A stretch of 64,000 nt of DNA from Vibrio crassostreae (GTDB lineage Bacteria; Pseudomonadota; Gammaproteobacteria; Enterobacterales; Vibrionaceae): the NCBI RefSeq assembly GCF_024347415.1, contig NZ_AP025476.1, positions 186,001 to 250,000 on the forward strand. The letters run 5' to 3'. The notes under the pieces were generated by a model. That model worked only from the letters and a program-made list of their open reading frames with translations. It was not told the origin of the DNA and did no database searches. Numbering within the stretch: position 1 is the first letter of the stretch; each line of letters begins with the position of its first letter. Below, in pieces: positions 7,250-62,018 of the stretch. Both the position numbers and the translations under genes were made by a program.

Positions 7250-7437
7250 CCCCGATTCTGCTTTAAGCTCTTCGCATCTCGGTTCCCCGCATCCCGCATC
7301 TGATTTCAAGCTTTTCGAATCTCGTTTACTCGAACCCCGCGTCTGCTTTTAAGCTCTTCGCATCTCGGTTACTCGCATCCCGCATCTGCTTTTAAGCTCT
7401 TCGTATCTCGGTTACTCGAATCCCGTACCTGCTTTTA
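7250..7437 (-). repeat. Direct-repeat array at the envC stop codon
   Basis: About four head-to-tail copies of a unit of about 43 bp. Read on the minus strand a unit runs TAARAGCAGATGCGGGATGC, then GAGTAACCGAGATGCGAAG, then AGCT. The first copy begins with the TAA stop codon of envC. The copies differ from one another by point changes. The same unit recurs across the window (8621, 9590, 32411, 36772, 37420, 59031, 60389, 61828). Confidence 0.85.
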
Positions 7438-8586
7438 TCTAACCAACCAACTCTTCGGGTTCTGAGCTTGACTGTTTCGGCGGATTTCAAAGTACAGTGA
7501 TGGGCGAGTTTGACCGCCGGTGTTACCCGCAAGCGCGATGGCTTCACCCGCTTTAACTTTGTCACCTTCTTTCTTTAAAAGTGCTTGGTTAAAGCCATAG
7601 AGCGTCATATCACCTTTACCGTGGTCGAGAAGAACCACTAAACCATAACCACGTAGATACTCGGCGAATACCACCGTTCCGGAGTAAACAGATTTAACCT
7701 GCTGACCGTACTTGGCGTTGATCACCATGCCTTTCCATTTAATTTGCCCCGTTTGACGTGAACCGTAGTTATGTAGAACTTTATCTTTGATCGGCCAAGG
7801 TAGCTTACCTTTACGTTTTGCTAGGCCATCCATCGGGACTGCATTACGTCGTTCTCGAGCCGCTTTTTCTGCTTTTGCTATTTCAGCTTTCAGGCGAGTT
7901 TCATTTCGCTGAAGTTCAGCCAAGTAATTTTTGTCGCCAGAAATATTCTTCTTAATACTGCCAACGGTTTTTTTGCGTTGTGTTTGAGTCTGAGACAACT
8001 TGTCACGCTTGGTGGTTTGCTGTTTTAACAATGTTGCGATTTGTTCTTGCTCGAGTTGACGCTGTTTGTGGCTTTCTTCTAATTCAAGTTGCGTCTGTTC
8101 AATCGTATTAATTGTTGCGGAGCGAGCTTTGGCAAGGTGTTGGTAATAGTGGCTGATACGATCTTCTTCGACACCCGTGTTGAGGATGTGAGAAGACGCT
8201 TTGGCTCGACTTGTCATGTAGTAAGTCTGAATCAGTTGCTCTAACTTATCGGTATGGACTTTTTTCTGAGCAGTAAGCGCTTTAATCTTAGTGTCTAAGT
8301 TCGCAATATTAGCATTAGCGGTATTGAGTTGCTTTTTACTGTCTAGAATCGCTTTTTCAAGCGAAGCGATGGAGAGCTCTTGTTTTTTGAGACTCGCTTG
8401 TAGGCTATCGAGCTTTTTTTGCTGTGAGGATAGGTTTTTCTGTTGACGAGAGATTTCGCTAGACACGCCTTTTAGTTCACCTTGAGATGCAGCAAATGAT
8501 GATGAAGACAAAAGAGCAACACCAAGGCTGGCAGATATCAAAAGAGTCCGGCTAATAGCTCGAATTTGTTTCATCATTATCGTCAT
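7435..8586 (-). CDS. envC: Murein hydrolase activator EnvC
   Basis: A periplasmic activator of the division amidases AmiA/AmiB, made at the septum under FtsEX control. A signal peptide (ISRTLLISASLGVALLSSSSFA) is followed by about 200 residues of coiled coil rich in K, Q and E, and a C-terminal LytM/M23 domain (last 110 residues) ending SLYFEIRRNSQAQNPKSWLVR. The zinc-binding His residues of active M23 peptidases are absent, as expected for EnvC, which is not itself a hydrolase. The start is ambiguous: the ATG at 8586 has AAGAG just upstream; ATG 8601 or ATG 8574 are alternatives. The stop codon is the first codon of the repeat array. Confidence 0.88.
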   Translation of the reverse strand: MTIMMKQIRAISRTLLISASLGVALLSSSSFAASQGELKGVSSEISRQQKNLSSQQKKLDSLQASLKKQELSIASLEKAILDSKKQLNTANANIANLDTKIKALTAQKKVHTDKLEQLIQTYYMTSRAKASSHILNTGVEEDRISHYYQHLAKARSATINTIEQTQLELEESHKQRQLEQEQIATLLKQQTTKRDKLSQTQTQRKKTVGSIKKNISGDKNYLAELQRNETRLKAEIAKAEKAARERRNAVPMDGLAKRKGKLPWPIKDKVLHNYGSRQTGQIKWKGMVINAKYGQQVKSVYSGTVVFAEYLRGYGLVVLLDHGKGDMTLYGFNQALLKKEGDKVKAGEAIALAGNTGGQTRPSLYFEIRRNSQAQNPKSWLVR

Positions 8587-8620
8587 TTTGCTCTTATTCA
8601 TTATCAACAGCTGCTGTCAG

Positions 8621-8749
8621 TCTTTTTGCATTTCGGTTACTCGAACCCGGCGTCTCTTTAAGCTCTTCGCATCTCGGTTACTCGCATCCCGTATCTGCTC
8701 TTAGTCTTTTCGTATCACGGTTATTCGTCGGATCCCGAACCTGCTCTTA
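8621..8749 (-). repeat. Direct-repeat array at the cysE stop codon
   Basis: About three diverged copies of the 43-bp family fill the gap between cysE and envC. On the minus strand the first copy starts TAAGAGCAGGTTCGGGAT, where TAA is the cysE stop codon. The orientation relative to the upstream gene is the same as at envC. Confidence 0.8.
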
Positions 8750-9568
8750 AATCCCATCACCGTGGATAAAGCTTTGTGAGCGACCATTGAATCCCTGGTC
8801 CATGTCTAAAGATGGCTTGTCAGTCTTAGGTTTACCTACAATTTTTGCAGGAACGCCAGCGACTGTTGTATGAGGTGGTACAGCTTGTAGAACTACAGAG
8901 CAAGAACCAATCTTCGCGCCTTCACCCACTTCAATGTTGCCAAGGATTTTAGCGCCGGCACCAATCATCACGCCTTCGCGGATCTTAGGGTGACGATCGC
9001 CGCCTTCTTTACCTGTACCACCAAGAGTCACGTCTTGAAGAATAGATACGTCGTTTTCGACTACTGCTGTTTCACCAATCACAATGCCAGTCGCGTGGTC
9101 GAGCATGATCGCTTTACCGATACGCGCAGCAGGGTGGATATCCACTTGGCAAGCGACTGAAATTTGATTTTGCAGATAGGTAGCAAGTGCGACTCGTCCT
9201 TGTTTCCATAGCCAGTTAGCCACCCGGTAACCTTGCAGAGCATGGTAGCCTTTCAGATAAAGCAGAGGCATCGAGTACATTTCGACCGCAGGATCTCGAT
9301 TTACCGTCGCACAGATATCACAAGCTGCCGCATCGATAATAGATTGATCCTGCTTAAACGCTTGTTCAACCACTTCACGCACAGCCATTGCTGGCATTGA
9401 AGCTGTCTTTAGCTTGTTGGCAAGGATATAACTTAATGCAGCGCCTAAGCTTTCGTGGTTGATAATGGTGGCATGGTAAAAACTCGCAAGCATAGGTTCT
9501 TGCTCTGACTGCTGTCGAGCTTCCTTCACAATGCATTGCCAAACTTTTTGTTGTTCACAGTGTTTCAT
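8747..9568 (-). CDS. cysE: Serine O-acetyltransferase
   Basis: A 273-residue left-handed beta-helix enzyme that makes O-acetylserine from serine and acetyl-CoA, the first step of cysteine synthesis. Residues 1-140 are the helical CysE N-domain. The hexapeptide-repeat domain follows, with DHATGIVIGETAVV carrying the catalytic Asp-His pair, then LGGTGKEGGDRHPKI, which binds CoA. The C-terminal tail ends MDQGFNGRSQSFIHGDGI; the final Ile is a CysE hallmark that docks into CysK. The start used is the ATG at 9568; an ATG four codons upstream is possible. It lies downstream of gpsA, the conserved gpsA-cysE order of enterics and vibrios. Confidence 0.93.
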   Translation of the reverse strand: MKHCEQQKVWQCIVKEARQQSEQEPMLASFYHATIINHESLGAALSYILANKLKTASMPAMAVREVVEQAFKQDQSIIDAAACDICATVNRDPAVEMYSMPLLYLKGYHALQGYRVANWLWKQGRVALATYLQNQISVACQVDIHPAARIGKAIMLDHATGIVIGETAVVENDVSILQDVTLGGTGKEGGDRHPKIREGVMIGAGAKILGNIEVGEGAKIGSCSVVLQAVPPHTTVAGVPAKIVGKPKTDKPSLDMDQGFNGRSQSFIHGDGI

Positions 9569-9589
9569 TTTACCATCCATTCCTTTAAA

Positions 9590-9736
9590 CCAGATACGCG
9601 TAGCGAGATGAGAGATGCGAAGAGCTTAGAAAAGCCAATTAGAGCAAACGAGATTCTAGAACTGAGGAAAAGCGAGTTGGAGACCTTTCTTTGGGTAGTT
9701 CGCATCTCGTTTACTCGAATCCCGTATCTGCTCTTA
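9590..9736. repeat. Repeat copies between gpsA and cysE
   Basis: One good copy of the 43-bp family (9698-9736, minus orientation) begins TAAGAGCAGATACGGGAT immediately after the TAG stop of gpsA. A degenerate copy in the opposite orientation (9590-9630, containing GATGCGAAGAGCTTA) lies just upstream of cysE. The stretch between them holds no gene. Confidence 0.75.
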
Positions 9737-10801
9737 CTATCTTTCTGACTTTTTGTCTCGAGCAAGTAAGTCTTGTGCTGCTAAGTGTGCATCTTTCCCT
9801 TGATACAGCACTTGATAAATTTGTTCAACAATTGGCATCTCGACGCCCATGCGTTCTGATAATAACCAAACTTCTTTGGTGTTGCGATAACCTTCGACAA
9901 CTTGGCCAATTTCTTCTTGAGCCGTGTCGACGTCTTTACCTGAGCCTAGCGCCAAACCAAAACGGCGATTTCGCGATTGGTTATCGGTACATGTTAGTAC
10001 TAGGTCGCCTAACCCTGCCATGCCCATGAAGGTTTCTGGTTGGGCACCCAGTGCAGCGCCTAAGCGACTCATTTCAGCTAAACCACGCGTGATAAGAGCA
10101 GTACGAGCATTGGCACCAAAACCAATACCATCCGACATGCCTGCTCCGATTGCGATAACGTTTTTAACCGCGCCGCCAAGTTGCATGCCAATGAAATCTG
10201 AGTTTGCGTACACACGGAATGTTTTGCCGCAGTGAATCTTCTCTTGTAGCTCTTCTAAGAAAGTCTCATCTGGTGACGCGACTGAAATTGCTGTCGGCAT
10301 ACCCATCGCAAGCTCTTTGGCAAAAGTAGGACCAGATAGAACAGCCAGTGAGTAACCATCACCAAGCACATCGTGCGCGACATCTTTAAGTAAACGACCG
10401 GTTTCTGGCTCTAAGCCTTTGGTTGCCCAGCAGATACGAGAGTTTGTCGTTAAGTGTGGTTTCAGGCTATTTAGAACGATACCAAACACGTGGCTAGGAA
10501 CAACAACGAGAAGATCGCGACTTGCCGTTACCGCTTTCTCGAGATCGGACTCGATAATCAGGCTTTCTGGGAAGTCGATATTCGGCAGAAACTCATTATT
10601 CGCACGCTCAGATTCAAGGCGAGCCATATGAACAGGGTCATGTCCCCAAAGGACAACGTTTGCACCGTTACGCGCTAAAGATATCGCTAAAGATGTCCCA
10701 TAAGAGCCTGCGCCAATGACTGTCATGGCGATGTCTTTGCCGTAAGCGCTGTCTTTACCGTAAGCGTCTGCCGTGTTAGTCGGGTGAGTTGTTTCTGTCA
10801 T
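9737..10801 (-). CDS. gpsA: Glycerol-3-phosphate dehydrogenase [NAD(P)+]
   Basis: The soluble enzyme that makes sn-glycerol-3-phosphate for phospholipids. After start correction it has 354 residues. The dinucleotide site [12 protein letters not shown] is near residues 28-39; [16 protein letters not shown] and the catalytic-Lys region [16 protein letters not shown] follow, then NSRNRRFG. The ATG at 10801 has AGGTGGA just upstream and is preferred; the longer frame to 10876 approaches the secB terminator hairpin. The N-terminus carries about 24 extra residues with a tandem AYGKD duplication, unlike the compact N-terminus usual for GpsA. Confidence 0.93.
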
Positions 10802-10889
10802 GCTTCCACCTAAAAATAATGAGGGAAATCGAAGAGTTCTGGAAAAGCTTTCCACTAAAGTAAGAAGAACTACCAATCTTAGTACAGTG

Positions 10890-12351: not shown

Positions 12352-12381
12352 TAGGAGCTAGACCTAAGGGCGGTAGCATGT
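12352..12381 (+). promoter_or_regulatory. JUMPstart/ops element 1
   Basis: TAGGAGCTAGACCTAAGG followed by the ops core GGCGGTAGCATG (12369-12380), about 210 bp before fnlA copy 1. ops pauses RNA polymerase and recruits RfaH, which suppresses termination in long surface-polysaccharide operons. The 606-bp gap 11988-12593 is otherwise AT-rich leader with no gene; the promoter must lie upstream of ops but was not assigned. Confidence 0.9.
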
Positions 12382-12593
12382 GTTTTTTTGTAAGGCCTTT
12401 GGTGGCTAGCTTTTGAACGCGATGATTGTGACTTTCAAATATCAGCATTGTTAGAAATAGATTGTAACAGAGCAAAAAAAGAGAGAGTTGATGCTTTTCA
12501 CAACGTTCAACCTCAATCGTTTTATGTAGCTTTGTGCATTAGTGGGCGTAACAAGCAATTTAATTCCCAATCAACTTAGTTAAGTGAGAGAAA

Positions 12594-13631
12594 ATGTTTA
12601 CAGATAAAACTCTTCTGATAACAGGCGGCACCGGCTCTTTTGGGAACGCCGTCCTAGACCGATTTTTAGAAACAGATATTAAAGAAATTCGCATATTCTC
12701 AAGGGATGAAAAGAAACAGGATGATATGCGAAAAAAATACAATTCACCAAAATTGAAGTTTTATATCGGTGATGTACGCGATTATAACTCTATTTTGTCT
12801 GCTACACGTGGTGTTGATTTTGTTTACCATGCAGCAGCTTTAAAACAAGTCCCGTCTTGCGAGTTTCATCCGATGGAAGCTGTTAAGACCAATGTGTTGG
12901 GAACAGAAAATGTCCTAGAGGCATGTATAGCGAATGAAGTTTCACGTGTAGTTTGTCTTAGTACAGATAAAGCGGTTTACCCAATAAATGCTATGGGGAT
13001 TTCCAAAGCGATGATGGAAAAAGTAATCGTCGCTAAATCACGTAATGTAGATCCAGATAAAACAGTTATATCTACAACTCGCTACGGCAACGTTATGGCG
13101 TCTCGAGGCTCAGTTATTCCTTTATTCCTACGTCAAATAATGAATGGTGACGCGATCACTATTACTGATCCTAACATGACTCGTTTTATGATGACCCTAA
13201 ATGATGCTGTAGACCTTGTTTTACACGCATTTACCCATGGTATAAATGGCGATATTTTCGTTCAAAAAGCTCCGGCAGCGACTATCGATGTTTTAGTTCA
13301 AGCTCTGAAAATGATCACCTCAAAGCCTGAGCATGAAGTCAATGTTATTGGTACTCGTCACGGTGAAAAGTTATATGAGGCATTGTGTAGCCGTGAAGAA
13401 ATGTTTGTTGCTGAAGACCAAGGTGGATACTATCGTATTCCCTCTGATAATCGAGACTTAAATTACTCTCAATATGTTGAAGAGGGTGAACAAGATTTAA
13501 GTTTGATTGAAGATTATAACTCTCATAATACAGAGCGTTTAGATGTAGATGGCATGATTAAACTGCTTCATAAATTAGATTTCATCGCTGATATTGAAGC
13601 GGGAAGCGTGATTGTTCCAGAAGGTGTGTAA
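12594..13631 (+). CDS. fnlA: UDP-GlcNAc 4,6-dehydratase/5-epimerase FnlA, copy 1
   Basis: A 345-residue soluble SDR enzyme (FnlA/WbjB/CapE family), the first step from UDP-GlcNAc to UDP-N-acetyl-L-fucosamine. The NAD motif ITGGTGSFGNAVL is at 8-20 and the active-site region STDKAVYPINAMGISKAMMEK has the MGxxK form of these dehydratases in place of YxxxK. The ATG follows GAGAGAAA. It overlaps fnlB by one base (TAATG). About 95% of residues match the second copy at 47627, whereas the DNA differs at many third positions. Confidence 0.9.
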   Translation: MFTDKTLLITGGTGSFGNAVLDRFLETDIKEIRIFSRDEKKQDDMRKKYNSPKLKFYIGDVRDYNSILSATRGVDFVYHAAALKQVPSCEFHPMEAVKTNVLGTENVLEACIANEVSRVVCLSTDKAVYPINAMGISKAMMEKVIVAKSRNVDPDKTVISTTRYGNVMASRGSVIPLFLRQIMNGDAITITDPNMTRFMMTLNDAVDLVLHAFTHGINGDIFVQKAPAATIDVLVQALKMITSKPEHEVNVIGTRHGEKLYEALCSREEMFVAEDQGGYYRIPSDNRDLNYSQYVEEGEQDLSLIEDYNSHNTERLDVDGMIKLLHKLDFIADIEAGSVIVPEGV

Positions 13632-14734
13632 TGAAAATATTAGTCACAGGAGCTAATGGTTTTATTGGTAAAAATCTATGCTTTCAATTAGAAGAGCAAG
13701 GTTTTACTGATATTATTAAAATTGGTCGCAATGATTCGGTTGAGAAGCTAAACAACGCACTTGAGGAAGCCGATTTCATTTATCATTTGGCGGGAGTAAA
13801 TAGACCAAAAGTTGAAGAGGAGTTTAAGGAAGGAAACGCCGATTTAACAGCTCACATTGTAGAAAAGCTGAAAAGTATTAATCGTTCAACACCAATTCTT
13901 TTAACGTCTTCAACTCAGGCTGAATATTCTAATCCTTATGGTGAAAGTAAAGCGTTGGCTGAAGAGGTAGTGAATGAATATGCTAAGCAGTTAAAAGCTA
14001 AAGTGTATATTTATCGCTTACCGAATGTGTTCGGCAAGTGGTGCCGTCCAAATTACAATTCTGTTGTAGCAACTTTTTGTTATAACGTGGTGAACGACCT
14101 ACCAATTACCGTAAATGATCCAGAGGCTAAGGTGAACTTGGTTTATATTGATACGGTTTGCGATCATTTCATCCACCATTTAACTAATGATGAACCATGT
14201 GGCACACAAGCAATAAAGCCTATCTATCCAACGACTGTCGGTGAGATAGCTCAGGCGCTACAAGCGTTTAAAGAAAGCAAAGAATCACTAATTACGGAGA
14301 ATGTAGGTTCGGGTTTTAAACGAGCACTGTATTCAACATATATTAGTTATTACTCGCCTAAACAGTTCTCTTATAATGTACCTGCTTATACCGACCCTCG
14401 TGGAGCCTTTTGTGAGTTGTTAAAAACGAAAGATGCAGGTCAGTTTTCTTTCTTTACAGCGCACCCAGGAATAACACGTGGGGGGCACTATCACCATACT
14501 AAAAATGAGAAATTTTTGGTCATAAAAGGTGAGGCGCAATTTAGGTTTGAGAATATTCTTACTGGTGAACGTTATGAGCAGGATGTAACTGGTGATGACT
14601 TTACTGTCGTAGAGACAGTACCTGGTTGGAGTCACGATGTGACAAATGTTGGCGAGTCAGAGCTTATTGTAATGCTTTGGGCTAATGAAATATTTGATCG
14701 CAATAAACCCGATACGTTTACCAAGTTACTGTGA
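13631..14734 (+). CDS. fnlB: UDP-FucNAc pathway reductase/epimerase FnlB, copy 1
   Basis: A 367-residue two-domain protein of the FnlB/WbjC/CapF family. The N-terminal SDR domain (1-245) has LVTGANGFIGKNLCF (4-18) and SNPYGESKALAEE with the YxxxK dyad. The C-terminal cupin (about 250-367) includes HPGITRGGHYHHTKNEKF, with the His cluster that binds metal in CapF. It does the C3 epimerisation and C4 reduction in UDP-L-FucNAc synthesis. Confidence 0.9.
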   Translation: MKILVTGANGFIGKNLCFQLEEQGFTDIIKIGRNDSVEKLNNALEEADFIYHLAGVNRPKVEEEFKEGNADLTAHIVEKLKSINRSTPILLTSSTQAEYSNPYGESKALAEEVVNEYAKQLKAKVYIYRLPNVFGKWCRPNYNSVVATFCYNVVNDLPITVNDPEAKVNLVYIDTVCDHFIHHLTNDEPCGTQAIKPIYPTTVGEIAQALQAFKESKESLITENVGSGFKRALYSTYISYYSPKQFSYNVPAYTDPRGAFCELLKTKDAGQFSFFTAHPGITRGGHYHHTKNEKFLVIKGEAQFRFENILTGERYEQDVTGDDFTVVETVPGWSHDVTNVGESELIVMLWANEIFDRNKPDTFTKLL

Positions 14735-14748
14735 TTAGGAAGAGAACA

Positions 14749-15882
14749 ATGAAAAAGCTAAAAGTCATGTCAGTAGTAGGAACTCGCCCTGAAATCATTC
14801 GTTTGTCTCGAGTGCTGGCGAAACTAGATCAACATTGTGAGCATGTATTGGTACATACTGGTCAGAATTATGATTTCGAATTGAATGAAGTCTTCTTCAA
14901 TGACTTAGGCGTGCGAAAACCTGATTACTTTCTAAATGCCGCAGGTAAGAATGCTGCTGAAACAATCGGTCAAGTTATTATTAACGTAGATCAAGCGTTA
15001 GATGAAATCCAGCCTGATGCCATGTTGGTATTGGGGGATACTAATTCTTGTTTATCTGCGATTCCGGCAAAGCGTCGTAAAATACCAATATTCCATATGG
15101 AAGCCGGTAATCGTTGTTTTGACCAACGTGTTCCAGAGGAAACGAATCGTCGTATTGTTGATCACACTGCAGATATAAATTTGACATATAGTTCGATTGC
15201 TAGAGAGTATTTATTGGCTGAAGGTTTACCCGCTGATCGTGTAATTAAAACAGGTAGTCCAATGTTTGAAGTGCTGAATCATTATATGCCTCAGATTGAC
15301 GCATCGGATGTGCTATCACGTTTAGGGCTTCAGAAAGGTCAATTTTTTGTTGTAAGTGCTCATCGAGAGGAAAATGTTGATTCACCAAAGCAGTTGGCCA
15401 AATTAGCTGAAACACTTAACAACGTAGCAGCCCATTATGGGTTGCCTGTCATTGTTTCTACTCATCCGCGTACTCGCAATCGTATTGAGGCTCAGGGAAT
15501 TGAATTTAATGAAAATATTCAATTACTGAAGCCTTTGGGTTTCCATGACTATAATCACTTGCAGAAGAACTCTAAAGCCGTCTTATCAGATAGTGGTACG
15601 ATTAATGAGGAATCTTCGATTATGAACTTCCCAGCTCTGAACTTGAGAGAAGCTCATGAGAGGCCAGAGGGTATGGAAGAAGCATCCGTAATGATGGTCG
15701 GGCTGAGTGTAGAGCTAGTTATGCAAGCACTTGAAATTTTGGAATCTCAACCAAATGGTCAAGAACGTTTACTTCGCCCTGTTTACGATTATAGCATGCC
15801 TAACGTATCAGATAAGATGGTGAGAATTATACATTCTTATACTGATTATGTTAAACGAGTTGTTTGGAAACAGTTTTCCTGA
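14749..15882 (+). CDS. fnlC: UDP-N-acetyl-L-fucosamine 2-epimerase FnlC, copy 1
   Basis: A 377-residue enzyme of the non-hydrolysing UDP-GlcNAc 2-epimerase fold (WecB family; FnlC/WbjD/CapG), the last step to UDP-L-FucNAc. Motifs are SVVGTRPEIIRLSRV (7-21), HTGQNYD, LGDTNSCLSA, HMEAGNRCFDQRVPEETNR and LSDSGTINEESS. The ATG at 14749 has AGGAAGAG upstream and matches the start of the second copy; a GTG at 14731 overlapping the fnlB stop is less likely. Confidence 0.9.
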   Translation: MKKLKVMSVVGTRPEIIRLSRVLAKLDQHCEHVLVHTGQNYDFELNEVFFNDLGVRKPDYFLNAAGKNAAETIGQVIINVDQALDEIQPDAMLVLGDTNSCLSAIPAKRRKIPIFHMEAGNRCFDQRVPEETNRRIVDHTADINLTYSSIAREYLLAEGLPADRVIKTGSPMFEVLNHYMPQIDASDVLSRLGLQKGQFFVVSAHREENVDSPKQLAKLAETLNNVAAHYGLPVIVSTHPRTRNRIEAQGIEFNENIQLLKPLGFHDYNHLQKNSKAVLSDSGTINEESSIMNFPALNLREAHERPEGMEEASVMMVGLSVELVMQALEILESQPNGQERLLRPVYDYSMPNVSDKMVRIIHSYTDYVKRVVWKQFS

Positions 15883-32520: not shown

Positions 32521-32658
32521 ATCCTTAAAACCATTCAACTAGGTTGATAATAAACACAATTTGTGGATAATGTTTACGGATTAAAATGACCGGATGCAAG
32601 CATCGTTTTTGCTGCGTTTGGTATTGACTATGCAGTGTGGTGTCACGAACGATCAAAG

Positions 32659-37419: not shown

Positions 37420-37571
37420 TTTCTCGTCACTCCCGCTCTTAAGCCTTTCGCATCTCGTTTACCCGTCACTCGCATCCGCTCTTGAGCCTTTCGCATCTCG
37501 CTTACTCGAATCCCGCTACAGCTCTTTAAGCTCTTCGTATCCCGCTTACTCGCATCCCGTATCTGCTCTTA
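37420..37571 (-). repeat. Repeat array at the amidase stop codon
   Basis: About three to four copies of the 43-bp family in minus orientation. The first begins TAAGAGCAGATACGGGATGC, where TAA is the amidase stop codon, and the last ends before the holin start. Confidence 0.82.
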
Positions 37572-40413: not shown

Positions 40414-40443
40414 TAGGAGCCAAACCTAAGGGCGGTAGCGTAC
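40414..40443 (+). promoter_or_regulatory. JUMPstart/ops element 3
   Basis: TAGGAGCCAAACCTAAGG followed by ops core GGCGGTAGCGTA (40431-40442), about 185 bp before the UDP-HexNAc dehydrogenase gene. The flank matches element 1 (TAGGAGC...ACCTAAGG). The remainder of the gap 40282-40627 is leader with no gene seen. Confidence 0.92.
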
Positions 40444-48664: not shown

Positions 48665-49767
48665 TGAGAATTTTAGTTACAGGCGCAAAAGGCTTTATTG
48701 GCAAAAACTTGTGTTTTCAATTAGAAGAGCAAGGTTTTACAGATATTGTTAAAATTGACCGAGACCATTCACTTCAAAAGTTAGACAATGCATTAGAAAC
48801 AGCAGATTTCATTTATCATTTGGCTGGGGTCAATCGCCCTAAAAGTGACGATGAATTCAAACAAGGCAATACTGGCCTAACTTCGCATATTGTAACCAAG
48901 CTAAACGAGCTTAACAAAGCTACACCCATTCTTCTTACTTCTTCTATACAAGCTGAGCAATCGAACCCATACGGTGTTAGTAAGGCTCAGGCCGAAGATG
49001 TTGTAAAAGAGTATGGTTTAAAGTCTCAAGCAAAAGTTTATATCTATCGTTTGCCAAATGTCTTTGGTAAGTGGTGTCGACCAAATTACAACTCAATGGT
49101 CGCTACTTTTTGCCATAATATAGCCAATGATCTACCGTTAACGATCAACGACCCTGCCGCAAAAGTTAACTTAGTTTATATAGATACAGTTTGCGAACAT
49201 TTCATTCATCATCTGAATCATGATGAGAAGTCAGGTGAGCAATCAATTAAGCCAATCTACCCAACAACGGTTGGTGAAGTTGCTAACGCACTTGAGTCAT
49301 TTAAAAAAAGTAAATCTTCTTTAATAACGGAAAATGTAGGTTCTGGCTTCTTACGAGCACTTTATTCGACCTACATTAGTTACTATTCCCCAGAACAGTT
49401 CTCATATACGGTTCCTGCTTATACAGATCCTCGTGGTTCTTTTTGTGAGCTTTTGAAAACTAAAGATGCTGGGCAGTTCTCTTTCTTTACTGCTCATCCG
49501 GGTATCACGCGTGGCGGGCATTATCATCATTCAAAAAATGAGAAATTCTTGGTTATTAAGGGGCAAGCAAGATTTCGATTTGAACATATCTCAACTGGTG
49601 AATGCTACGAGTTAGATGTTACGGGGGATGATTACCGAGTAGTGGAAACCGTGCCTGGTTGGACACATGATGTGACAAATATAGGCGACTTGGAACTAAT
49701 CGTAATGCTATGGGCCAACGAAATTTTTGATCGAGATAAACCAGACACTTTTGCAAAGCCGCTGTAG
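48664..49767 (+). CDS. fnlB: UDP-FucNAc pathway reductase/epimerase FnlB, copy 2
   Basis: A 367-residue SDR-plus-cupin enzyme, same architecture as copy 1: ILVTGAKGFIGKNLCF at 3-18, SNPYGVSKAQAED with the YxxxK dyad, and the cupin HPGITRGGHYHHSKNEKF. It is the most diverged of the three paralogous pairs, especially in the first 160 residues. Confidence 0.9.
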   Translation: MRILVTGAKGFIGKNLCFQLEEQGFTDIVKIDRDHSLQKLDNALETADFIYHLAGVNRPKSDDEFKQGNTGLTSHIVTKLNELNKATPILLTSSIQAEQSNPYGVSKAQAEDVVKEYGLKSQAKVYIYRLPNVFGKWCRPNYNSMVATFCHNIANDLPLTINDPAAKVNLVYIDTVCEHFIHHLNHDEKSGEQSIKPIYPTTVGEVANALESFKKSKSSLITENVGSGFLRALYSTYISYYSPEQFSYTVPAYTDPRGSFCELLKTKDAGQFSFFTAHPGITRGGHYHHSKNEKFLVIKGQARFRFEHISTGECYELDVTGDDYRVVETVPGWTHDVTNIGDLELIVMLWANEIFDRDKPDTFAKPL

Positions 49768-49775
49768 GAATAAAA

Positions 49776-50906
49776 ATGAAAAAACTAAAAGTAATGTCAG
49801 TGGTCGGTACTCGACCTGAAATCATTCGATTATCTAGAGTGTTAGCTAAATTGGATGAACACTGTGACCATGTTCTTGTCCATACTGGTCAAAATTACGA
49901 CTTCGAGCTCAACGAAGTCTTTTTTAGTGATTTGGGCGTACGTAAACCGGATTATTTCTTAAGTGCTGCAGGTAAAAATGCAGCAGAGACTATCGGGCAA
50001 GTGATCATCAAGGTGGATCAAGCATTAGAAGAGATCCAGCCAGATGCAATGTTAGTATTGGGTGATACTAATTCTTGCTTGTCTGCTATACCCGCAAAAC
50101 GTCGTAAAGTACCCATTTTTCATATGGAAGCAGGCAATCGCTGTTTTGATCAACGTGTACCAGAAGAAACTAACCGTCGTATTGTTGATCACACCGCCGA
50201 TATCAACCTAACTTACAGCTCGATTGCGCGAGATTACTTACTGGCGGAAGGTCTACCTGCTGATCGTGTGATTAAAACAGGCAGTCCAATGTTTGAGGTA
50301 TTAAGTCACTATATGCCTCAAATTGATGGCTCAGATGTATTATCTCGTTTGGGAATTGAAAAGGGACAATTTTTTGTGGTGAGCGCTCACCGTGAAGAAA
50401 ACGTAGATTCTCCGAAACAGCTGGCAAAACTAGCTGAAACTTTGAATAAAGTTGCAGAGAAGTATGACTTACCAGTTATCGTATCAACTCACCCGAGAAC
50501 TCGTAACCGAATTGAAGCGCAGGGCGTAGAATTTCATCCTAACATCCAGTTATTAAAGCCTCTGGGTTTCCACGATTACAACCACCTTCAAAAGAATGCT
50601 AAGGCGGTGCTGTCTGACAGTGGAACCATAAATGAAGAATCATCCATTATGAACTTTCCAGCACTAAACCTTCGTGAGGCTCATGAGCGCCCAGAGGGAA
50701 TGGAAGAGGCTTCGGTCATGATGGTTGGTCTAGATGTCGAGCGTGTAATGCAAGCGCTGCAAATTTTAGAGACTCAGCCAAGTGGTAATGAGCGACTATT
50801 ACGCCCAGTATACGATTACAGCATGCCGAATGTATCTGACAAAATGGTGAGAATCATTCACTCGTATACGGATTACGTAAAGCGAGTCGTTTGGAAAGAG
50901 TATTAA
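49776..50906 (+). CDS. fnlC: UDP-N-acetyl-L-fucosamine 2-epimerase FnlC, copy 2
   Basis: A 376-residue WecB-fold epimerase, with KKLKVMSVVGTRPEIIRL at the start and HMEAGNRCFDQRVPEETNR as in copy 1. About 94% of residues match copy 1 by eye. A strong intercistronic inverted repeat follows the stop. Confidence 0.9.
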   Translation: MKKLKVMSVVGTRPEIIRLSRVLAKLDEHCDHVLVHTGQNYDFELNEVFFSDLGVRKPDYFLSAAGKNAAETIGQVIIKVDQALEEIQPDAMLVLGDTNSCLSAIPAKRRKVPIFHMEAGNRCFDQRVPEETNRRIVDHTADINLTYSSIARDYLLAEGLPADRVIKTGSPMFEVLSHYMPQIDGSDVLSRLGIEKGQFFVVSAHREENVDSPKQLAKLAETLNKVAEKYDLPVIVSTHPRTRNRIEAQGVEFHPNIQLLKPLGFHDYNHLQKNAKAVLSDSGTINEESSIMNFPALNLREAHERPEGMEEASVMMVGLDVERVMQALQILETQPSGNERLLRPVYDYSMPNVSDKMVRIIHSYTDYVKRVVWKEY

Positions 50907-54596: not shown

Positions 54597-54651
54597 CCAT
54601 CCTCATAAGTAATAAAGAGCTTTTTCTTTAAGCACCTTTGGTCTCAACATT

Positions 54652-54687
54652 ATTGGCTTATTGGCTTATTGGCTTATTGGCTTATTG
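54652..54687 (+). repeat. 8-bp simple repeat (ATTGGCTT)4.5
   Basis: Four exact tandem copies of ATTGGCTT (54652-54659, 54660-54667, 54668-54675, 54676-54683) plus ATTG. They lie after the aminotransferase stop and before a terminator, in an untranslated tail. Such tracts change length by slippage. Confidence 0.92.
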
Positions 54688-54926: not shown

Positions 54927-56864
54927 ATGCAACGTCTAAACTTCATATGGTACCTTTCTCGTTTTAAAAAGCGGGTTATCAGTGTTTCTATTGATGCTTT
55001 ACTCATTATATTCTCTCTGCACATTGCGTTGTGGACAAGGCTAGGTGATTTCCAATTTTTGAATGATGGCGATAATTTATTACTGACAGGCTTAACAGTA
55101 ATAATGACGGTGCTTATTTTTACTAAATTAGGGCTTTATCGCGCAGTACTTAGGTATCTCACCTTTCAAGCGCTGTTTGTGGTAACGGCAGGCGCAATAT
55201 TGTCGGCAATCTCTTTGGCTCTGTTTGCGTATTACCTGCAAGAACCAGTCCCTCGTACGGTGCCTATTATTTACGGTGCTTATTTAGCTTTGTTATGTGG
55301 CGGCTCTCGTTTGGTGGTTCGCAATCTTGTCGCGACGACATCGAAAGATTCACGTCAAGAAGTATTAATTTACGGTGCGGGCTCAGGCGGCCGACAATTG
55401 GCTGTCGCGTTAAGAGCGTCTGAAAACTATCGAGTACGCGCGTTCATTGATGAAGATAAAACGCTCACCAATACGATGATTTTGGGTTTGCCCGTTATTG
55501 TATTAGACAAAGCGGAAAGGTTGATTGAGAAGCACGATGTTTCTAAAATCTTGCTCGCGATCCCAAGCGCTTCTCGCGCTCGCCGTAAGCAAGTATTGGA
55601 TTTGCTGGCGCAGCTGCCCGTTGAGATTCAAACCGTTCCTGAAATGGCGGATATTGTGTCAGGTAAAGCAAAGATTGATGAGCTTACCGATGTACCTATT
55701 GAAGATTTGCTCGGTCGTGATGCGGTTGCGCCTCAGCAGGTTCTGATGGAAGCCAATATCAAAGGAAAAGTGGTGATGGTGACCGGTGCTGGCGGCTCTA
55801 TTGGTTCTGAACTTTGTCGTCAAATCCTTAAACAACAACCTAAAACATTAGTGCTGTTTGAAGTCTCTGAGTTTGGCTTATACCAAATTGATCGTGAGCT
55901 TTCTTTAGTTAAAGAAACCAAAGGTTACGATGTTGAAATCGTGCCTCTACTAGGCTCGGTGCAGCGTTCGCATCGCTTGTTAACCTCAATGCAATCTTTT
56001 GGTGTGCAGACGGTTTATCATGCTGCGGCTTATAAACACGTTCCTCTTGTCGAGTACAACGTTGTCGAAGGTGTGCGTAATAATGTTTACGGCACTTACT
56101 ATACCGCCAAAGCCGCTATTGAAGCGGGTGTTGAATCCTTTGTGCTTATCTCGACAGATAAAGCGGTACGCCCAACTAACGTGATGGGTACCACCAAGCG
56201 TATGGCGGAATTAGGCCTGCAAGCTTTGGCTGAGCAAGAGAACCAAAAAGAGCACGGTACACGTTTCTGTATGGTCCGTTTTGGTAATGTACTTGGCTCG
56301 TCTGGTTCGGTCATTCCTTTGTTTAAAAGGCAGATTAAAGCCGGTGGCCCACTCACTGTGACTCACCGTGATATTACCCGTTTCTTTATGACCATTCCTG
56401 AAGCGGCGCAGCTAGTGATTCAGGCGGGCGCTATGGGTAAAGGCGGTGATGTTTTCGTTCTTGATATGGGGGAATCGGTTAAAATCACAGACTTGGCTGA
56501 AAACTTGATTAACCTTTCTGGCCTGTCGGTTAAGAATGAAGAAAACCCTCATGGTGATATTGAAATCCAATTCTCAGGCCTGCGTCCTGGTGAAAAGCTG
56601 TATGAAGAGTTATTGATTGGTGATAATGTCGCCCCAACCGCTCATGAGCGAATCATGACCGCGCAAGAAGTGTTCTTACCGATTAATGAATATGACACGC
56701 TACTTGAATCTTTGGATTTTGCTTGTCATAACCTACAACATGATACGATTCGCCAGCTTCTTCTCGATGCACCAACCGGGTTTAAGCCGACAGATGGGGT
56801 AGGGGATTTGGTTTGGAATGCTGCTCAGAACCAAGAAGAGCTCCTTCTAGAGCCTAGAGCCTAG
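54927..56864 (+). CDS. Membrane UDP-GlcNAc 4,6-dehydratase (PglF/WbpM/FlaA1 type)
   Basis: A 645-residue nucleoside-diphosphate-sugar dehydratase with four N-terminal transmembrane helices (about 18-130), a Rossmann linker domain (EVLIYGAGSGGRQLAVAL near 146-163) and the catalytic domain (VVMVTGAGGSIGSELCRQI near 283-301; STDKAVRPTNVMGTTKRM near 411-428 with the MGxxK active site). It makes the 4-keto-6-deoxy sugar used by the aminotransferase and acetyltransferase. It follows its own candidate promoter. The last codons and stop lie in a 7-bp tandem repeat. Confidence 0.88.
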   Translation: MQRLNFIWYLSRFKKRVISVSIDALLIIFSLHIALWTRLGDFQFLNDGDNLLLTGLTVIMTVLIFTKLGLYRAVLRYLTFQALFVVTAGAILSAISLALFAYYLQEPVPRTVPIIYGAYLALLCGGSRLVVRNLVATTSKDSRQEVLIYGAGSGGRQLAVALRASENYRVRAFIDEDKTLTNTMILGLPVIVLDKAERLIEKHDVSKILLAIPSASRARRKQVLDLLAQLPVEIQTVPEMADIVSGKAKIDELTDVPIEDLLGRDAVAPQQVLMEANIKGKVVMVTGAGGSIGSELCRQILKQQPKTLVLFEVSEFGLYQIDRELSLVKETKGYDVEIVPLLGSVQRSHRLLTSMQSFGVQTVYHAAAYKHVPLVEYNVVEGVRNNVYGTYYTAKAAIEAGVESFVLISTDKAVRPTNVMGTTKRMAELGLQALAEQENQKEHGTRFCMVRFGNVLGSSGSVIPLFKRQIKAGGPLTVTHRDITRFFMTIPEAAQLVIQAGAMGKGGDVFVLDMGESVKITDLAENLINLSGLSVKNEENPHGDIEIQFSGLRPGEKLYEELLIGDNVAPTAHERIMTAQEVFLPINEYDTLLESLDFACHNLQHDTIRQLLLDAPTGFKPTDGVGDLVWNAAQNQEELLLEPRA

Positions 56865-56875
56865 AGCCTAGAGCC
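56848..56875 (+). repeat. 7-bp simple repeat across the stop codon, (TAGAGCC)4
   Basis: Four exact copies at 56848-56854, 56855-56861, 56862-56868 and 56869-56875. The pglF/wbpM-like gene ends at the TAG of the third copy. As 7 is not a multiple of 3, copy-number change would shift the frame and alter or extend the last residues. Confidence 0.93.
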
Positions 56876-57363: not shown

Positions 57364-57410
57364 AATTTGTTTTTATACCGATTTATTTTGAATTGAACGA
57401 GGTCAGTCCT

Positions 57411-58943
57411 ATGTCAGCTAAGAAGCCAATGGCTCTAGTGATCCTTGACGGTTACGGTTACCGTGAAGACAACCAAGACAACGCTATCGCGAACGCTAAA
57501 ACACCAGTATTAGACGGTCTTATTGCTAACCAACCTAACACGCTAATCTCGGCTTCTGGCTTAGATGTAGGCCTACCTGATGGTCAAATGGGTAACTCAG
57601 AAGTGGGTCACACCAACATCGGTGCGGGTCGCGTGGTATACCAAGATCTTACTCGTATCACTAAGTCAATTTCAGACGGCGAGTTCGGCCAAACTGAAAC
57701 GCTAGTGAATGCTATCGATAAAGCGGTGAAAGCTGATAAAGCGGTTCACATCATGGGCCTTATGTCTCCAGGTGGCGTTCACTCTCATGAAGATCACATC
57801 TACGCGGCTGTTGAAATGGCAGCAGAGCGTGGTGCAGAGAAAATCTACCTACACGCTTTCCTAGACGGTCGTGATACGCCGCCACGTAGCGCAGAAAACA
57901 CATTGGCACGTTTCCAAGAGCTATTCGCTAAGCTAGGTAAAGGCCGTGTGGCTTCGCTTATTGGTCGTTACTACGCAATGGACCGTGATAACAACTGGGA
58001 TCGCGTTCAAGAATCTTACGACCTACTGACTCAAGCAAAAGCTGAGTTCACATTCGACACAGCAGTAGCTGGCCTAGAAGCGGCTTACGCTCGTGACGAA
58101 AACGATGAGTTCGTTAAAGCGACTGAAATCAAAGCAGAAGGCGAAGAGTCTGCCGCTATCGTTGATGGCGATGCGGTTATCTTCATGAACTACCGTGCCG
58201 ACCGTGCTCGTGAAATCACGCGTGCATTCGTTCCTGATTTCGACGGCTTTGCTCGTAACGTATTCCCAGCGATCGACTTTGTGATGCTGACTCAATACGC
58301 TGCAGACATCCCACTTCTTTGTGCATTCCCACCGGCTTCTCTAGAGAACACCTACGGTGAGTGGCTATCGAAAGAAGGCAAAACGCAGCTACGCATCTCT
58401 GAAACAGAGAAATACGCGCACGTGACGTTCTTCTTCAACGGCGGTAAAGAAGACGAGTTCGAAGGCGAAGAGCGTCAGCTTGTTGCTTCTCCAAAAGTAG
58501 CTACGTACGACCTACAGCCAGAAATGAGCGCACCAGAGCTCACTGAAAAGCTTGTTGCAGCAATCAAAGGCGGCAAATACGACGCTATCGTTTGTAACTT
58601 CCCTAACTGTGACATGGTTGGCCACACTGGCGTTTACGATGCAGCGGTTAAAGCGGTAGAGTCGCTAGACGAATGTCTTGGTAAAGTAGTTGAAGCAATC
58701 AAAGAAGCTGATGGCCAACTGCTTATCACCGCAGACCACGGTAACGCGGAAATGATGGTAAACCCAGAAACGGGCGGCATCCACACGGCGCACACTAACC
58801 TACCAGTGCCACTTATCTACGTAGGCAACAAAGACGTTGAGTTCAAAGAAGGCGGTAAGCTGTCTGACCTTGCACCAACGATGCTTTCTCTGTCTGGTAT
58901 TGATATCCCAGCTGAAATGTCAGGTGACGTGATCGTTAAGTAG
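57411..58943 (+). CDS. gpmI: 2,3-bisphosphoglycerate-independent phosphoglycerate mutase
   Basis: A 510-residue Mn-dependent glycolytic enzyme (GpmI, also GpmM). The metal and nucleophile region [19 protein letters not shown] (near 57-75, catalytic Ser in GNSEVGH), HLFDGRDTPP-like [20 protein letters not shown] region and [11 protein letters not shown] near 440-450 are typical. The ATG at 57411 has GAGG at the right distance and gives the family length; the frame is open 18 bp further. Strong codon bias marks it as highly expressed. Confidence 0.95.
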
Positions 58944-59030: not shown

Positions 59031-59161
59031 ATAGATGCGAGATACGAGTAAACGAGTAGCGAAGAGCTTTAAGGGCAGATTCGGGATTCGGGATTCGGGT
59101 AATCGAGATGCGAAGAGCTTAAGAGCAGATGAGGGATACGGGGGAATAGAGATTCGCAGAG
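59031..59161 (+). repeat. 43-bp family copies after the gpmI terminator
   Basis: About three diverged copies in plus orientation, starting right at the end of the terminator T run (ATAGATGCGAGATACGAGTA) and ending 8 bp from the toxin stop. An internal GATTCGG triplication is present. Confidence 0.78.
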
Positions 59162-59168
59162 CTAAACG

Positions 59169-59516
59169 CTATTTGTAGAGTATGCAGTGTTGAATGAGCA
59201 GTTGTTCTAAGTTTTGTTTTTGCAATGCGATCACATCTACAATTACTCTCGTTTCTTTCGGATGAGCTGTCGGTAACGTTCGGTAGATAATACGAAAACT
59301 ATCGAGGTGAAATTCGCGAAAGTTTTTCACTCCGAGTTCTAGTAGAGAAGGGGCAATGTTTGCAGCATGAGGGTTATCAGAGACTAAGGCTTCAAATCGG
59401 TCGAGAAGAGCTTCTATGCGTTCAATGACAGACTCTTCACTCGAATAATCACTTAAGTAATTAATTAAAGCATCAAGTAATTGTTCAAAGGTGTCTGTGT
59501 ACTCGATGGTGGTCAT
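59169..59516 (-). CDS. RelE/ParE-superfamily toxin
   Basis: A 115-residue protein with the RelE/ParE fold: helical N-terminus (TDTFEQLLDALINYL), then VKNFREFHLDSFRIIYRTL near 63-81 and TRVIVDVIALQKQNLEQLL near 91-109, which match the strand-loop-strand of these toxins. It starts 1 bp after the antitoxin stop, the usual antitoxin-toxin order. Whether it cuts mRNA or inhibits gyrase cannot be told. Confidence 0.8.
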   Translation of the reverse strand: MTTIEYTDTFEQLLDALINYLSDYSSEESVIERIEALLDRFEALVSDNPHAANIAPSLLELGVKNFREFHLDSFRIIYRTLPTAHPKETRVIVDVIALQKQNLEQLLIQHCILYK

Positions 59517-59517
59517 A

Positions 59518-59769
59518 TTATTGAACCGATTGTTTACGCTTTGCCAGTTTATCTCGAATCTGAGAGCTGGAGTTTACTCGGCCATATTTTTCATCATCAA
59601 TAGAAAACGACAATAGTTTCATTAGCGCTATAGCTTCATCTCTACGCTTTCGATCTTCATAAGATTCAATCGTATAAGCGGGTTTACCATTTTGAGTAAT
59701 GGTCATAGGCTCCGATAAATCGAGGTTAGCCGCGTGCTTTTTTAAGTAACTTATCGTTTCAGTGGACAT
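59518..59769 (-). CDS. Phd/YefM-type antitoxin
   Basis: An 83-residue antitoxin. ETISYLKKHAANLDLSEPMT and ITQNGKPAYTIESYEDRKRR (22-41) are the Phd/YefM DNA-binding half; the C-terminal half is the toxin-neutralising tail. The second of two close ATGs (59769) is better spaced from AAGAGA; the first (59775) is possible. A palindrome lies 34 bp upstream. Confidence 0.8.
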   Translation of the reverse strand: MSTETISYLKKHAANLDLSEPMTITQNGKPAYTIESYEDRKRRDEAIALMKLLSFSIDDEKYGRVNSSSQIRDKLAKRKQSVQ

Positions 59770-59802
59770 TATCATTATCTCTTAATGTGGAAGTTTAAAT
59801 GT

Positions 59803-60363: not shown

Positions 60364-60388
60364 GTCATCTTCCTTTTTTTAGTCTTTT

Positions 60389-60447
60389 TCTGCTCTCAAG
60401 CTCTTATATCTTTTCGCATCTCGATTACTCGCATCCCGTATCTGCTT
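60389..60447 (-). repeat. 43-bp family repeat overlapping the MATE gene 3' end
   Basis: One to two copies in minus orientation. The last codons of the MATE gene (KADTGCE and stop) are read from the repeat: AAAGCAGATACGGGATGC then GAGTAA, so the stop is supplied by the repeat itself. The remainder extends toward ogt. Confidence 0.82.
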
Positions 60448-61768
60448 TCCCCCTAACACGAAGTGCAAAGCAATACCCCGAAATTCCACCCATTATGTTT
60501 CCTAAAGCTAGGCCTATAAACAGCCCTTCGACGCCATCGATTTGGCTACCTACCCAAGCGAACGGCAAGGTAAATACAAACAGACGCATGAAGCTCCATT
60601 GAAAGGCTTTGAGTGGTTGGTGCATCGCATTCATGGCACTGATCAGCATCATTACAATGCCTTGGAATCCATAGCTAAACGGGACAACTAACAGGTAATG
60701 CCACAAGATGCCTCGTACGGATTCTTCTTGAGAAAAGAGGGCAGCCAAAGGGATGCTCAATGGCACCATCATTAAGAAAATCAAACCCTGAAATAGCACA
60801 GCAAAACGCATGCTTAAGAACAGGGCTTTGAAACTGCGCTGTGGATTATTAGCACCAAAGTTTTGCGCCATAAAAGGCGTGAGAGCAGAGGTTAAAGACA
60901 TCAATACGATGATCAGAATCGATTCAATACGTTGGGCAGCTCCGTAAGCCGCCACTGCTTCGGTCCCTTGGTTGGCTAGCATCATCATAATAATGGCACC
61001 AGCAAGTGGATTTAGCGCATTGGAAAGAGCGGCGGGTGTGCCGATGGTTAAGATCTGTTTCCAGTCACTGATGATGCTTTTTGGTTTGGGCGGAGCAAGT
61101 AGCTTTTCTCGTATGGTTAACACATAAAGTGAGCCACATAAAGCACCAAACCAACTGAATCCGCTAGCAATGGCTGCACCTTGAATTCCTAGTTCAGGAA
61201 AAGGCCCGTAACCGAAGATCAGCAGCGGGTCGAGAATGCCGTTAATCAGGCCGGCCAGCATCATGATCTTAGCGGGGGTTTTTGTATCACCACTCGCTCG
61301 TATTGCGCTATTACCTGCCATTGGAATAACAAGTAGTGGAATAGCTAAATACCAGACCGTCATATATTCAGAGATTAGTGGTAGTAACTCTGGTTCTGCC
61401 CCCAATAAGGCGAACATGGGTTCAAGCGTTACAAGCCCCAGAGTTGATGCAAAACCAACAAGCAACACCGCAAGCAGCAAACCGTGACAAGTAAAGCGAG
61501 CCGCATTTTGCGCGCAACCTTGACCAAGCAAGCGTCCAATACACGTTGATAAGCCAATGCCTATACCCATGGTAATGCAGTTGATGGCAAAGGTGACAGG
61601 GAAGGTGAAGCTCACCGCAGCAAGGGCTTGGGTACCCAGTAATGAGATAAAGAAAGTATCGACAAGGTTAAACATCAAGATCGCCACCATACCGAATATG
61701 GTCGGTATGGTCATAGTGCGCAGAGTGTCTGCTATCGGGGCTGTAAGAAGCCCGTGTTTATCTTGCAT
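60425..61768 (-). CDS. MATE-family efflux transporter
   Basis: A 447-residue multidrug-and-toxin-extrusion transporter with 12 predicted helices. The start TLRTMTIPTIFGMVAILMF and NLVDTFFISLLGTQALAAVS are typical of the first two helices; YGAAQRIESILIIVLMSL opens the second half. Na+ or H+ coupling and the drug are unknown. The C-terminus ends inside a repeat copy, which may have replaced the original ending. Confidence 0.87.
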   Translation of the reverse strand: MQDKHGLLTAPIADTLRTMTIPTIFGMVAILMFNLVDTFFISLLGTQALAAVSFTFPVTFAINCITMGIGIGLSTCIGRLLGQGCAQNAARFTCHGLLLAVLLVGFASTLGLVTLEPMFALLGAEPELLPLISEYMTVWYLAIPLLVIPMAGNSAIRASGDTKTPAKIMMLAGLINGILDPLLIFGYGPFPELGIQGAAIASGFSWFGALCGSLYVLTIREKLLAPPKPKSIISDWKQILTIGTPAALSNALNPLAGAIIMMMLANQGTEAVAAYGAAQRIESILIIVLMSLTSALTPFMAQNFGANNPQRSFKALFLSMRFAVLFQGLIFLMMVPLSIPLAALFSQEESVRGILWHYLLVVPFSYGFQGIVMMLISAMNAMHQPLKAFQWSFMRLFVFTLPFAWVGSQIDGVEGLFIGLALGNIMGGISGYCFALRVRGKADTGCE

Positions 61769-61827
61769 GTAAAACGCCAGCTGAAACGAAAGGAGTAGGA
61801 TAAACAGATGTGGCTTGGAAAGAAAGA

Positions 61828-62018
61828 AAAGCAGATGCGAGATGCGGGTAAACGAGTATCGAAGAGCTAAAAGCGGAAAAAGAGATGCAGCCTTCTTTTG
61901 TTTTATCCCTGACAGTTACACAGGATTATTCGCAGGGGCGTTTTTGCTTTTCGTATCTCGCATCCCGTTTACTCGTATCTGCTCTCAAGTCTATTCGCAT
62001 CCCGTATCTGCCCCTTAG
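61828..62018. repeat. Inverted pair of 43-bp family copies before groES
   Basis: A plus-oriented copy (61828-61870, GCAGATGCGAGATGCGGGTA) and minus-oriented copies (61945-62017, ending CGTATCTGCCCCTTA) face each other across a 75-bp spacer. They fill the region between the MATE start and the groES promoter; no gene is seen. Confidence 0.75.

Follow-up and report, generated by a model that had tools for sequence, protein, structure and literature searches.

Heptameric repeats are described by Rehm and colleagues (2015; PMC4692102) as GGGAATC in Xanthomonas and GGGGA(C/T)T in Nostoc; that account makes the ability to form quadruplexes central, leaves the function open, and reports such repeats from Xanthomonas but not from other gammaproteobacteria. 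Here we describe a repeat of this kind from Vibrio crassostreae, as found in a 64,000-nucleotide stretch of contig NZ_AP025476.1 (hereafter the window; G000:C1:186001-250000). The genome (G000) comprises 5,804,381 bp, of which the contig C1, taken here as chromosome I, makes up 3,475,743 bp (60%). We document the anatomy, position, polarity and strand composition of the repeat as well as its presence or absence between species, and find that the Vibrio family is a variant of the heptameric gene-end repeats and follows their published placement rules. The question is now a sharp one: has the polarity of the arrays been selected as a shield against invading transcription, or does a mutational process build arrays at gene ends?

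The likeness to the Xanthomonas and Nostoc repeats extends to the seven-base unit, a G-rich strand that is sense to the preceding open reading frame (ORF) and lies within 50 bp of its stop, a 5' side nearer the ORF, scarcity between divergent ORFs, inverted pairs, and absence from the plasmids examined there (PMC4692102). The Vibrio repeat differs in its sequence (GATNCGR), in having almost no quadruplex potential, in its 43-bp higher-order unit, in that its best matches lie on C1 only, and in its concentration near surface-polysaccharide genes. No earlier description of it was found in the literature searched, most subscription journals lying outside that search. Heptamers of another kind, TAACTGA, occur in marine Beggiatoaceae and cyanobacteria, with the Maribeggiatoa copies mostly just upstream of starts (MacGregor, 2015; PMC4679880). 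These are likewise intergenic direct seven-base repeats of strain-specific distribution, but differ in their start-side placement and in that forward copies carry stops in all frames (PMC4679880). In Vibrio, by contrast with this start-side placement, one of 41 codirectional sense blocks lies near the next start.

The variable-number tandem repeat loci used in Vibrio typing resemble the arrays, by description only, in being tandem repeats of variable copy number. Repetitive extragenic palindromic (REP) elements, and the related BIME and REPIN forms with their REP-associated (RAYT) transposases, are intergenic, often lie behind stops and occur as inverted pairs. The Vibrio unit differs from these in that it forms no hairpin alone, grows by heptads, and has no RAYT match on C1.

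A compound heptad repeat with biased polarity

The core motif has 12 matches in the window against 0.02 expected, and an iterated profile recovers 25 units at E<0.01; two programs also returned the 43-bp period together with direct-repeat families D1 to D6. At least nine groups of the unit had been reported in an initial annotation of the window, and these are confirmed at the coordinates given there. Aligned, the units consist of degenerate heptads GAT[G/A/T]CGR plus a spacer around AGAGCTTAAGAGCA, and a 7-bp step separates three of the 25 from the remaining ones: the 43-bp unit is a compound, higher-order copy of the seven-base tandem repeat GAT[G/A/T]CGR. Seven bases is the commonest period among exact tandem runs (49 of 61), a count that, like the null values for gap classes below, applies to the fetched stretches, which were mostly picked for holding arrays.

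Placement was mapped in 87 stretches including the window (950,285 bp) from genomes G000, G005, G008, G010 and G017, taken as members of the Splendidus clade on the grounds that they carry the unit. Here 315 unit matches merged into 167 oriented blocks, three of which overlap a called gene and have no gap distance, leaving 164 for tests on gaps; genes were called with our own script, their stops being firm and their starts approximate. Compared with blocks scattered at random over the gaps of these stretches (1000 runs), the observed ones were frequent in convergent gaps (92, null 39.5), fewer than expected in codirectional gaps (68, null 80.6) and nearly lacking from divergent gaps (4, null 43.8). 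A sense gene lies upstream of 133 blocks. The start of the block is no more than 5 nt away from the stop of that gene in 39 of them (null mean 4.1, maximum 10) and between -30 and 10 of it in 51, within the 50-bp, sense-strand placement of Rehm and colleagues (2015). Offsets from several species are those of orthologues and thus non-independent; G000 alone, which avoids this, gives 11 of 28 within 5 nt (null 0.9, maximum 5). In codirectional gaps, 20 of the 41 sense blocks are at the upstream stop and a single one ends within 10 nt of the next start.

The two ends of a block are not equivalent. Of the 164 blocks, 144 have an ORF closer to their 5' end than to their 3' end, and in convergent gaps 31 of 92 begin at the stop of their own gene while two end at the opposite stop. 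The 117 occupied gaps comprise 80 with a single block, 29 with a '+-' pair, none with '-+', one with '--' and seven with three or more blocks; every gap with one block per orientation (29 of 29) is therefore head to head. This bears on the view that the arrays are selfish or neutral filler, that is, easily slipping seven-base satellites surviving in the dead space behind gene ends, with their position set by purifying selection elsewhere and their strand bias historical or mutational. Such filler should touch both flanking genes equally, which is at odds with 31 own stops against two opposite ones and with mixed two-block gaps that are '+-' 29 times and '-+' never.

Loci from named records, picked by unit pattern and not by position, behave alike: of 72 blocks, 46 have a sense gene upstream, 15 are codirectional antisense, six divergent and five coding or at an edge, and 34 of the 46 are anchored at the stop, while the opposite stop is where one ends. 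These figures (39 of 133 against a null of 4.1; 34 of 46) bear out the preference for gene 3' ends and sense orientation that the initial annotation held to be beyond chance, and the mapped stretches and named loci revealed neither a lack of bias nor an equal frequency before starts.

Arrays of the window

The arrays of the window and the genes next to them are as follows.

7263-7437, minus strand: four 43-bp units, the first providing the TAA of envC (7435-8607, minus); offset to stop -3
8619-8750, minus strand: three units from the stop of cysE (8747-9580, minus); offset -4
9584-9628, plus strand: inverted second arm in the gpsA-cysE gap, adjoining the cysE start, antisense
9699-9736, minus strand: single unit straight after the TAG of gpsA (9737-10876, minus); offset 0
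32435-32521, minus strand: two units (an additional GCGGGAT heptad in one of them), lying antisense between a yjbH-like gene and wza; exception to the sense rule
36773-36879, plus strand: array anchored at wzc (34603-36774, plus), left arm of a head-to-head pair; offset -2
36880-37042, minus strand: three units and two weak partial ones, right arm, behind a small ORF (37049-37384, minus)
37439-37572, minus strand: three units at the stop of an amidase gene (37569-38138, minus); offset -4
59033-59165, plus strand: three units, 89 nt past the stop of a gpmI-like gene (57393-58943, plus) and 4 nt from the stop of a ParE-like ORF
60407-60448, minus strand: unit containing the end of a MATE gene (60425-61768, minus), whose TAA is the internal GAGTAA of the unit; offset -24
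61827-61870, plus strand: left arm of a pair in the divergent gap between MATE and groES (62137, plus)
61946-62011, minus strand: right arm of that pair, one unit and a weak partial one (E 0.014)
6899-6912, plus strand: possible, non-significant unit remnant (E 3.6) past the stop of a TetR-like gene (6257-6895) and opposed to the envC array

Pfam backs the names envC (Peptidase_M23), cysE, gpsA, wzc, amidase and MATE. This agrees with the seven stop-anchored sense groups named at the outset, with the offsets above. For the group assigned to a 'holin', the first full unit is at +19 (a weak partial one, E 0.43, is at about +7), and the small ORF 37049-37384 is without Pfam match at E 0.001. Its array and that of wzc meet head to head, as had been reported. 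Three groups depart from the pattern of stop and sense orientation, namely 9584-9628 (plus), 32435-32521 (minus) and 61827-62011. The 3' end of the MATE gene lies within a unit (60425-60448), so that array sequence encodes the last residues of the protein, and similar junctions occur in G005, G008, G010 and G017.

A further repeat, with CATTCCC...GGGAATGAC-like arms, occupies the envC gap (window positions approximately 7010-7150), and also lies between array arms at C1 positions of approximately 579,440-579,540 and 713,930-714,040.

Terminators and turnover

In the five genomes, intrinsic terminators were sought within 60 nt of the stop wherever the gap behind a gene measured 90 nt or more. 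They were present at 10 of 50 anchored 3' ends as against 168 of 371 array-free ones (p 7e-4), and at 53 of 72 ends where the array lies further down (p 1e-5). From these counts an array tends to begin at the functional end of the gene: without a terminator it is mostly at the stop, and with one it is mostly beyond the terminator. The region C1:100-290 kb alone had terminators at none of seven anchored 3' ends versus 29 of 78 others. That genes with terminators lack stop-anchored copies, as had been noticed for the window, thus stands as a trend and not as a rule. The mode of placement is kept per gene across species, with offsets such as -3, 3, -4, 3 and 3 for one gene and 82, 68, 97, 117 and 90 for another, in an orthologue table of 33 gene families present in at least three genomes (the table leans towards presence, the stretches having been picked for arrays).

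The gap between gpsA and cysE illustrates gain. In G005 and G016 it measures 35 nt and is free of units; in G000, G008, G010 and G017 arrays are present and the gap spans 117-186 nt. Among 13 more distant genomes the gap is 23-78 nt in 10, while in G003 (199 nt) and G013 (222 nt) it holds other repeats, as judged by eye; the value for G009 is unreliable, its GpsA match being split. The 35-nt sequence of G005 and G016 was not seen beside the arrays (by eye, with no systematic search for target duplications), so the change looks like replacement or expansion rather than clean insertion, and clean insertion is rejected at this gap to the extent that the empty-gap sequence is, by eye, not preserved. 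Of the initial proposal of insertion or growth at gene ends, gain is upheld and clean insertion is not. Arrays thereby mark gene boundaries that vary between close species, and the gpsA-cysE gap offers natural pairs with and without them.

A mobile element akin to REPINs or MITEs, spread by a transposase or some other enzyme with stops or terminators as its target, would account for scattered copies, for an inverted two-arm form of fixed relative orientation and for the adjacency to stops or terminators. We regard it as very unlikely, given that gpsA-cysE shows no clean empty site, that different heptads occupy different sites in G003 (see below), and that the sole PF01797 match over the cut-off in G000 is a 99-amino-acid frame on the small contig C4, with none on C1. 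The last result lends no support to a RAYT-driven element, the transposase of which the initial annotation proposed to look for; the interpretation given there is, as a whole, partly supported.

Spread over the genome and the genus

In whole-genome model searches the best 150 of about 2,000 first-look candidates were scored, so that the counts are lower bounds and absence outside C1 holds for the best-scoring copies. With this scope, a sequence-only model gave at least 70 matches in G000 at E<=0.1, all 70 on C1, and a second model (R2) gave at least 66, again all on C1. The 43-bp form clusters near the polysaccharide locus: 23 of the 40 R2 matches of at least 25 bits in G000 fall within C1:150-256 kb. 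Since R2 was trained on 31 copies from outside the core of G000, G005 and G008 and still repeats the concentration, the latter does not stem from the training. Among blocks that score 25 bits or more, the core holds 13 of 19 in G000, 14 of 18 in G017, 9 of 13 in G010, 8 of 15 in G008 and 4 of 8 in G005. In G005, G008, G010 and G017 the matches listed are on the large contig, and G016 has one on its C2.

Matches occurred in 10 of the 31 genomes searched, G000 and nine relatives of the same genus. Among named genomes, exact units were present in 21 stretches, every one from Vibrio or Vibrionales; the species include V. splendidus, V. lentus, V. fortis and V. chagasii; window DNA aligns to 16 of the 21, the best pieces at 73-95% identity.

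Elsewhere on C1 there are pure arrays of GAGATAC, GAGATGC or GAGATTC, of up to approximately 24 copies, and a search for pure heptad arrays gave 115 matches versus two for a control pattern read backward. Eight of these arrays were inspected by eye: five follow a terminator-like hairpin, two follow a stop, and one (C1:2065 kb) is antisense to both neighbours. The pattern GAGATNC was found in 62 of 227 Vibrio genomes, but its backward-read control was found in 60 of 227, usually with fewer matches, which makes the genus-wide spread only suggestive. An unrelated second heptad, ACTAGRR, turned up in 50 of 226 genomes (backward control 5 of 226), and was not found in G000, G005, G008, G010, G016 or G017.

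The backward control of GAGATNC, GRGCNTAGRGCNTAGAG, is itself a heptad pattern. Its occurrence in about one-quarter of the Vibrio genomes hints at additional families of heptads, for instance the (CTAGAGC) array of the window.

Several heptads coexist in the gaps of G003 (ACGGGTT, GGTTACA, TAAAGGC and CTAGAAA), so that a single genome has different motifs at different sites. Over 400 kb sampled from G003 there were 10 exact heptad runs, none coding, none divergent and two adjoining each other; by G/C skew seven are sense to the preceding gene and three are not, and four start within 10 nt of a stop. Samples of the same size held three exact runs in G013, none anchored and one divergent, and no exact runs in G006. 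Generality beyond the clade is thus mixed: placement is similar with other heptads in G003 and is not in G013.

Much of this spread favours the filler view. Heptads are lineage-specific (ACTAGRR in 50 of 226 genomes and in none of the six genomes named above), the pure arrays of some 24 copies suggest recent slippage, period seven prevails among exact tandem runs (49 of 61), and a gap may be empty in close relatives; GAGATNC in 62 of 227 genomes points the same way, weakly on its own against 60 of 227 for its control.

Folding, strand composition and possible roles

Seven array stretches folded no better than shuffled sequence (z -1.02 to +0.77), nor did single arrays of at least 60 nt across the mapped set (median z 0.22, three of 35 below -2). 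In contrast, two-armed gaps fold well (median z -4.46, 28 of 31 below -2), as does the gpsA-cysE gap of G003 (z -5.0); spans above 400 nt, single blocks below 60 nt and rarer gap patterns were omitted from this test. A hairpin terminator (GC-rich hairpin with U-run) or Rfam RNA is ruled out for single arrays by the lack of folding above shuffles, and Rfam 15 gave no matches at gathering scores in the window. Of the idea that a 3'-end RNA function might replace the terminator, one part is supported: arrays are complementary to intrinsic terminators in their occurrence. A folded, terminator-like RNA is not supported, since single arrays are unfolded, and any RNA function would be hypothetical.

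Folding also speaks for a REP/BIME-like RNA, in which a long two-armed hairpin past the stop would end or protect the mRNA or act on terminating ribosomes. E. coli REP elements lie close to stops, which resembles the stop proximity of the Vibrio arrays, and the two-armed gaps fold far above shuffles (28 of 31). Yet 80 of 117 gaps have a single block, single arrays of at least 60 nt remain unfolded (three of 35), and the window holds no Rfam family. We consider this account unlikely; a hairpin role can apply solely to the two-armed minority.

A G-quadruplex element, as suggested for the Xanthomonas and Nostoc heptamers, is favoured by the architecture that the repeats share with those heptamers (PMC4692102), and 99 of 167 blocks do contain at least one GGG. 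The canonical pattern is present in two of 167, however, GAGATAC, GAGATGC and GAGATTC are without GG, and we reject the candidate as scarcely credible. Since the placement is the same with almost no quadruplex potential, the quadruplex idea is removed as a common cause.

What the arrays do have is a marked strand asymmetry. On the purine strand, A makes up 37%, G 33%, C 14% and T 16%. For the 60 arrays that are 60 nt or longer, the entering strand (that of a polymerase moving into the gene) has a median C/G ratio of 2.48, above 1 in all 60, and in 59 of 60 it has the C/G ratio and spaced cytosines of Rho utilization (rut) sites, as against none of 60 for the leaving strand. Windows of 78 nt were scored by the published criteria, with looser spacing (9-13 nt between Cs) and no pause-site step (PMC6407284). 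The corresponding rates were 21% in 808 array-free gap windows and 26% in coding sense and 40% in coding antisense sequence (792 each). As in rut sites, the arrays have C>G, spaced cytosines and no structure when single, on the strand entering ORFs (PMC6407284); unlike rut sites, they are repetitive and 107 of 167 are below 60 nt, hence outside the scoring. Substitutions among 120 units are asymmetric too: on the purine strand T>C amounts to 2.1% versus 6.8% for A>G, and A>C to 0.19% versus 1.4% for T>G, such that C is gained less often than G. This asymmetry is a further difficulty for the filler view.

We tentatively suggest that the arrays are strand-polar gene-boundary elements, our preferred reading, which we hold possible, with considerable doubt. 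Seven-base repeats would have taken hold and grown immediately downstream of the point where genes functionally end, with the G/A-rich, C-poor strand as the strand leaving the gene. A polymerase leaving the gene would then make unstructured, purine-rich RNA that gives Rho no grip, while one entering it, in antisense or by read-through from a neighbour, would make C-rich, G-poor, unstructured RNA; in the longer arrays (60 nt or more; 60 of 167) such RNA could offer Rho a loading site from which to halt the entering polymerase, and the arms of a two-armed gap would serve opposite directions. Strand polarity, near-exclusion from divergent gaps and the C-rich entering RNA fit such a one-way barrier; Rho loading, termination and selection for it we infer from sequence features.

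Several observations weigh against a one-way barrier. Orientation is less strict in codirectional gaps, with 41 sense and 27 antisense blocks (single blocks 16:9). Most arrays are short (107 of 167 below 60 nt), and where a gap has two arms the purine arm is able to pair with the C-rich one, which would thereby be hidden (28 of 31 such gaps fold at z<-2). Mononucleotide shuffles keep the spaced-C feature in 89% of cases, so the rut-like feature is mostly a matter of composition. G>C and C>G substitutions show no difference (p 1), and C>T is less frequent than G>A, which means that existing Cs are kept; mixing of heptad registers and orthologues may have caused part of the substitution asymmetry. 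Finally, transcripts in Xanthomonas were reported to start or stop at quadruplex-forming heptamers with either strand transcribed (PMC4692102), which gives no hint of a one-way element there. Neutral filler is nearly as likely as the boundary reading, and so likewise a possible but doubtful explanation; it leaves the asymmetry between array ends unexplained.

In a wider, rather improbable extension of the boundary reading, G-over-C skewed heptads at gene ends would be a recurrent bacterial class of boundary elements with independent origins, whose polarity makes one-way transcription barriers. Its proposed members are GATNCGR and ACGGGTT (Vibrio), GGGAATC (Xanthomonas) and GGGGATT (Nostoc), each of which would be silent when transcription leaves the gene and Rho-terminating when it enters.

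Other features of the window

One distinct array of the window is a pure heptad of another sequence:

56847-56875, plus strand: (CTAGAGC) x 4.1, spanning the stop of ORF 54927-56864

The ParE-like ORF beside the array at 59033-59165 (59169-59516) is adjoined by a small ORF (59518-59775), possibly as a toxin-antitoxin pair. Three GGGCGGTAGC motifs lie near polysaccharide operons (12368-12377, 32658-32667 and 40430-40439), and resemble the JUMPstart/ops elements bound by RfaH. RfaH is reported to inhibit Rho (PMC5449661), and this may bear on the boundary reading. A perfect tandem repeat of an eight-base unit (TTATTGGC, 4.8 copies; 54650-54687), flanked by polysaccharide genes on both sides, is a candidate phase-variable site. 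The regions 12589-15044 and 47622-50071 share three pairs of 300-bp stretches, in register and 77-83% identical, which point to two copies of a polysaccharide synthesis gene block.

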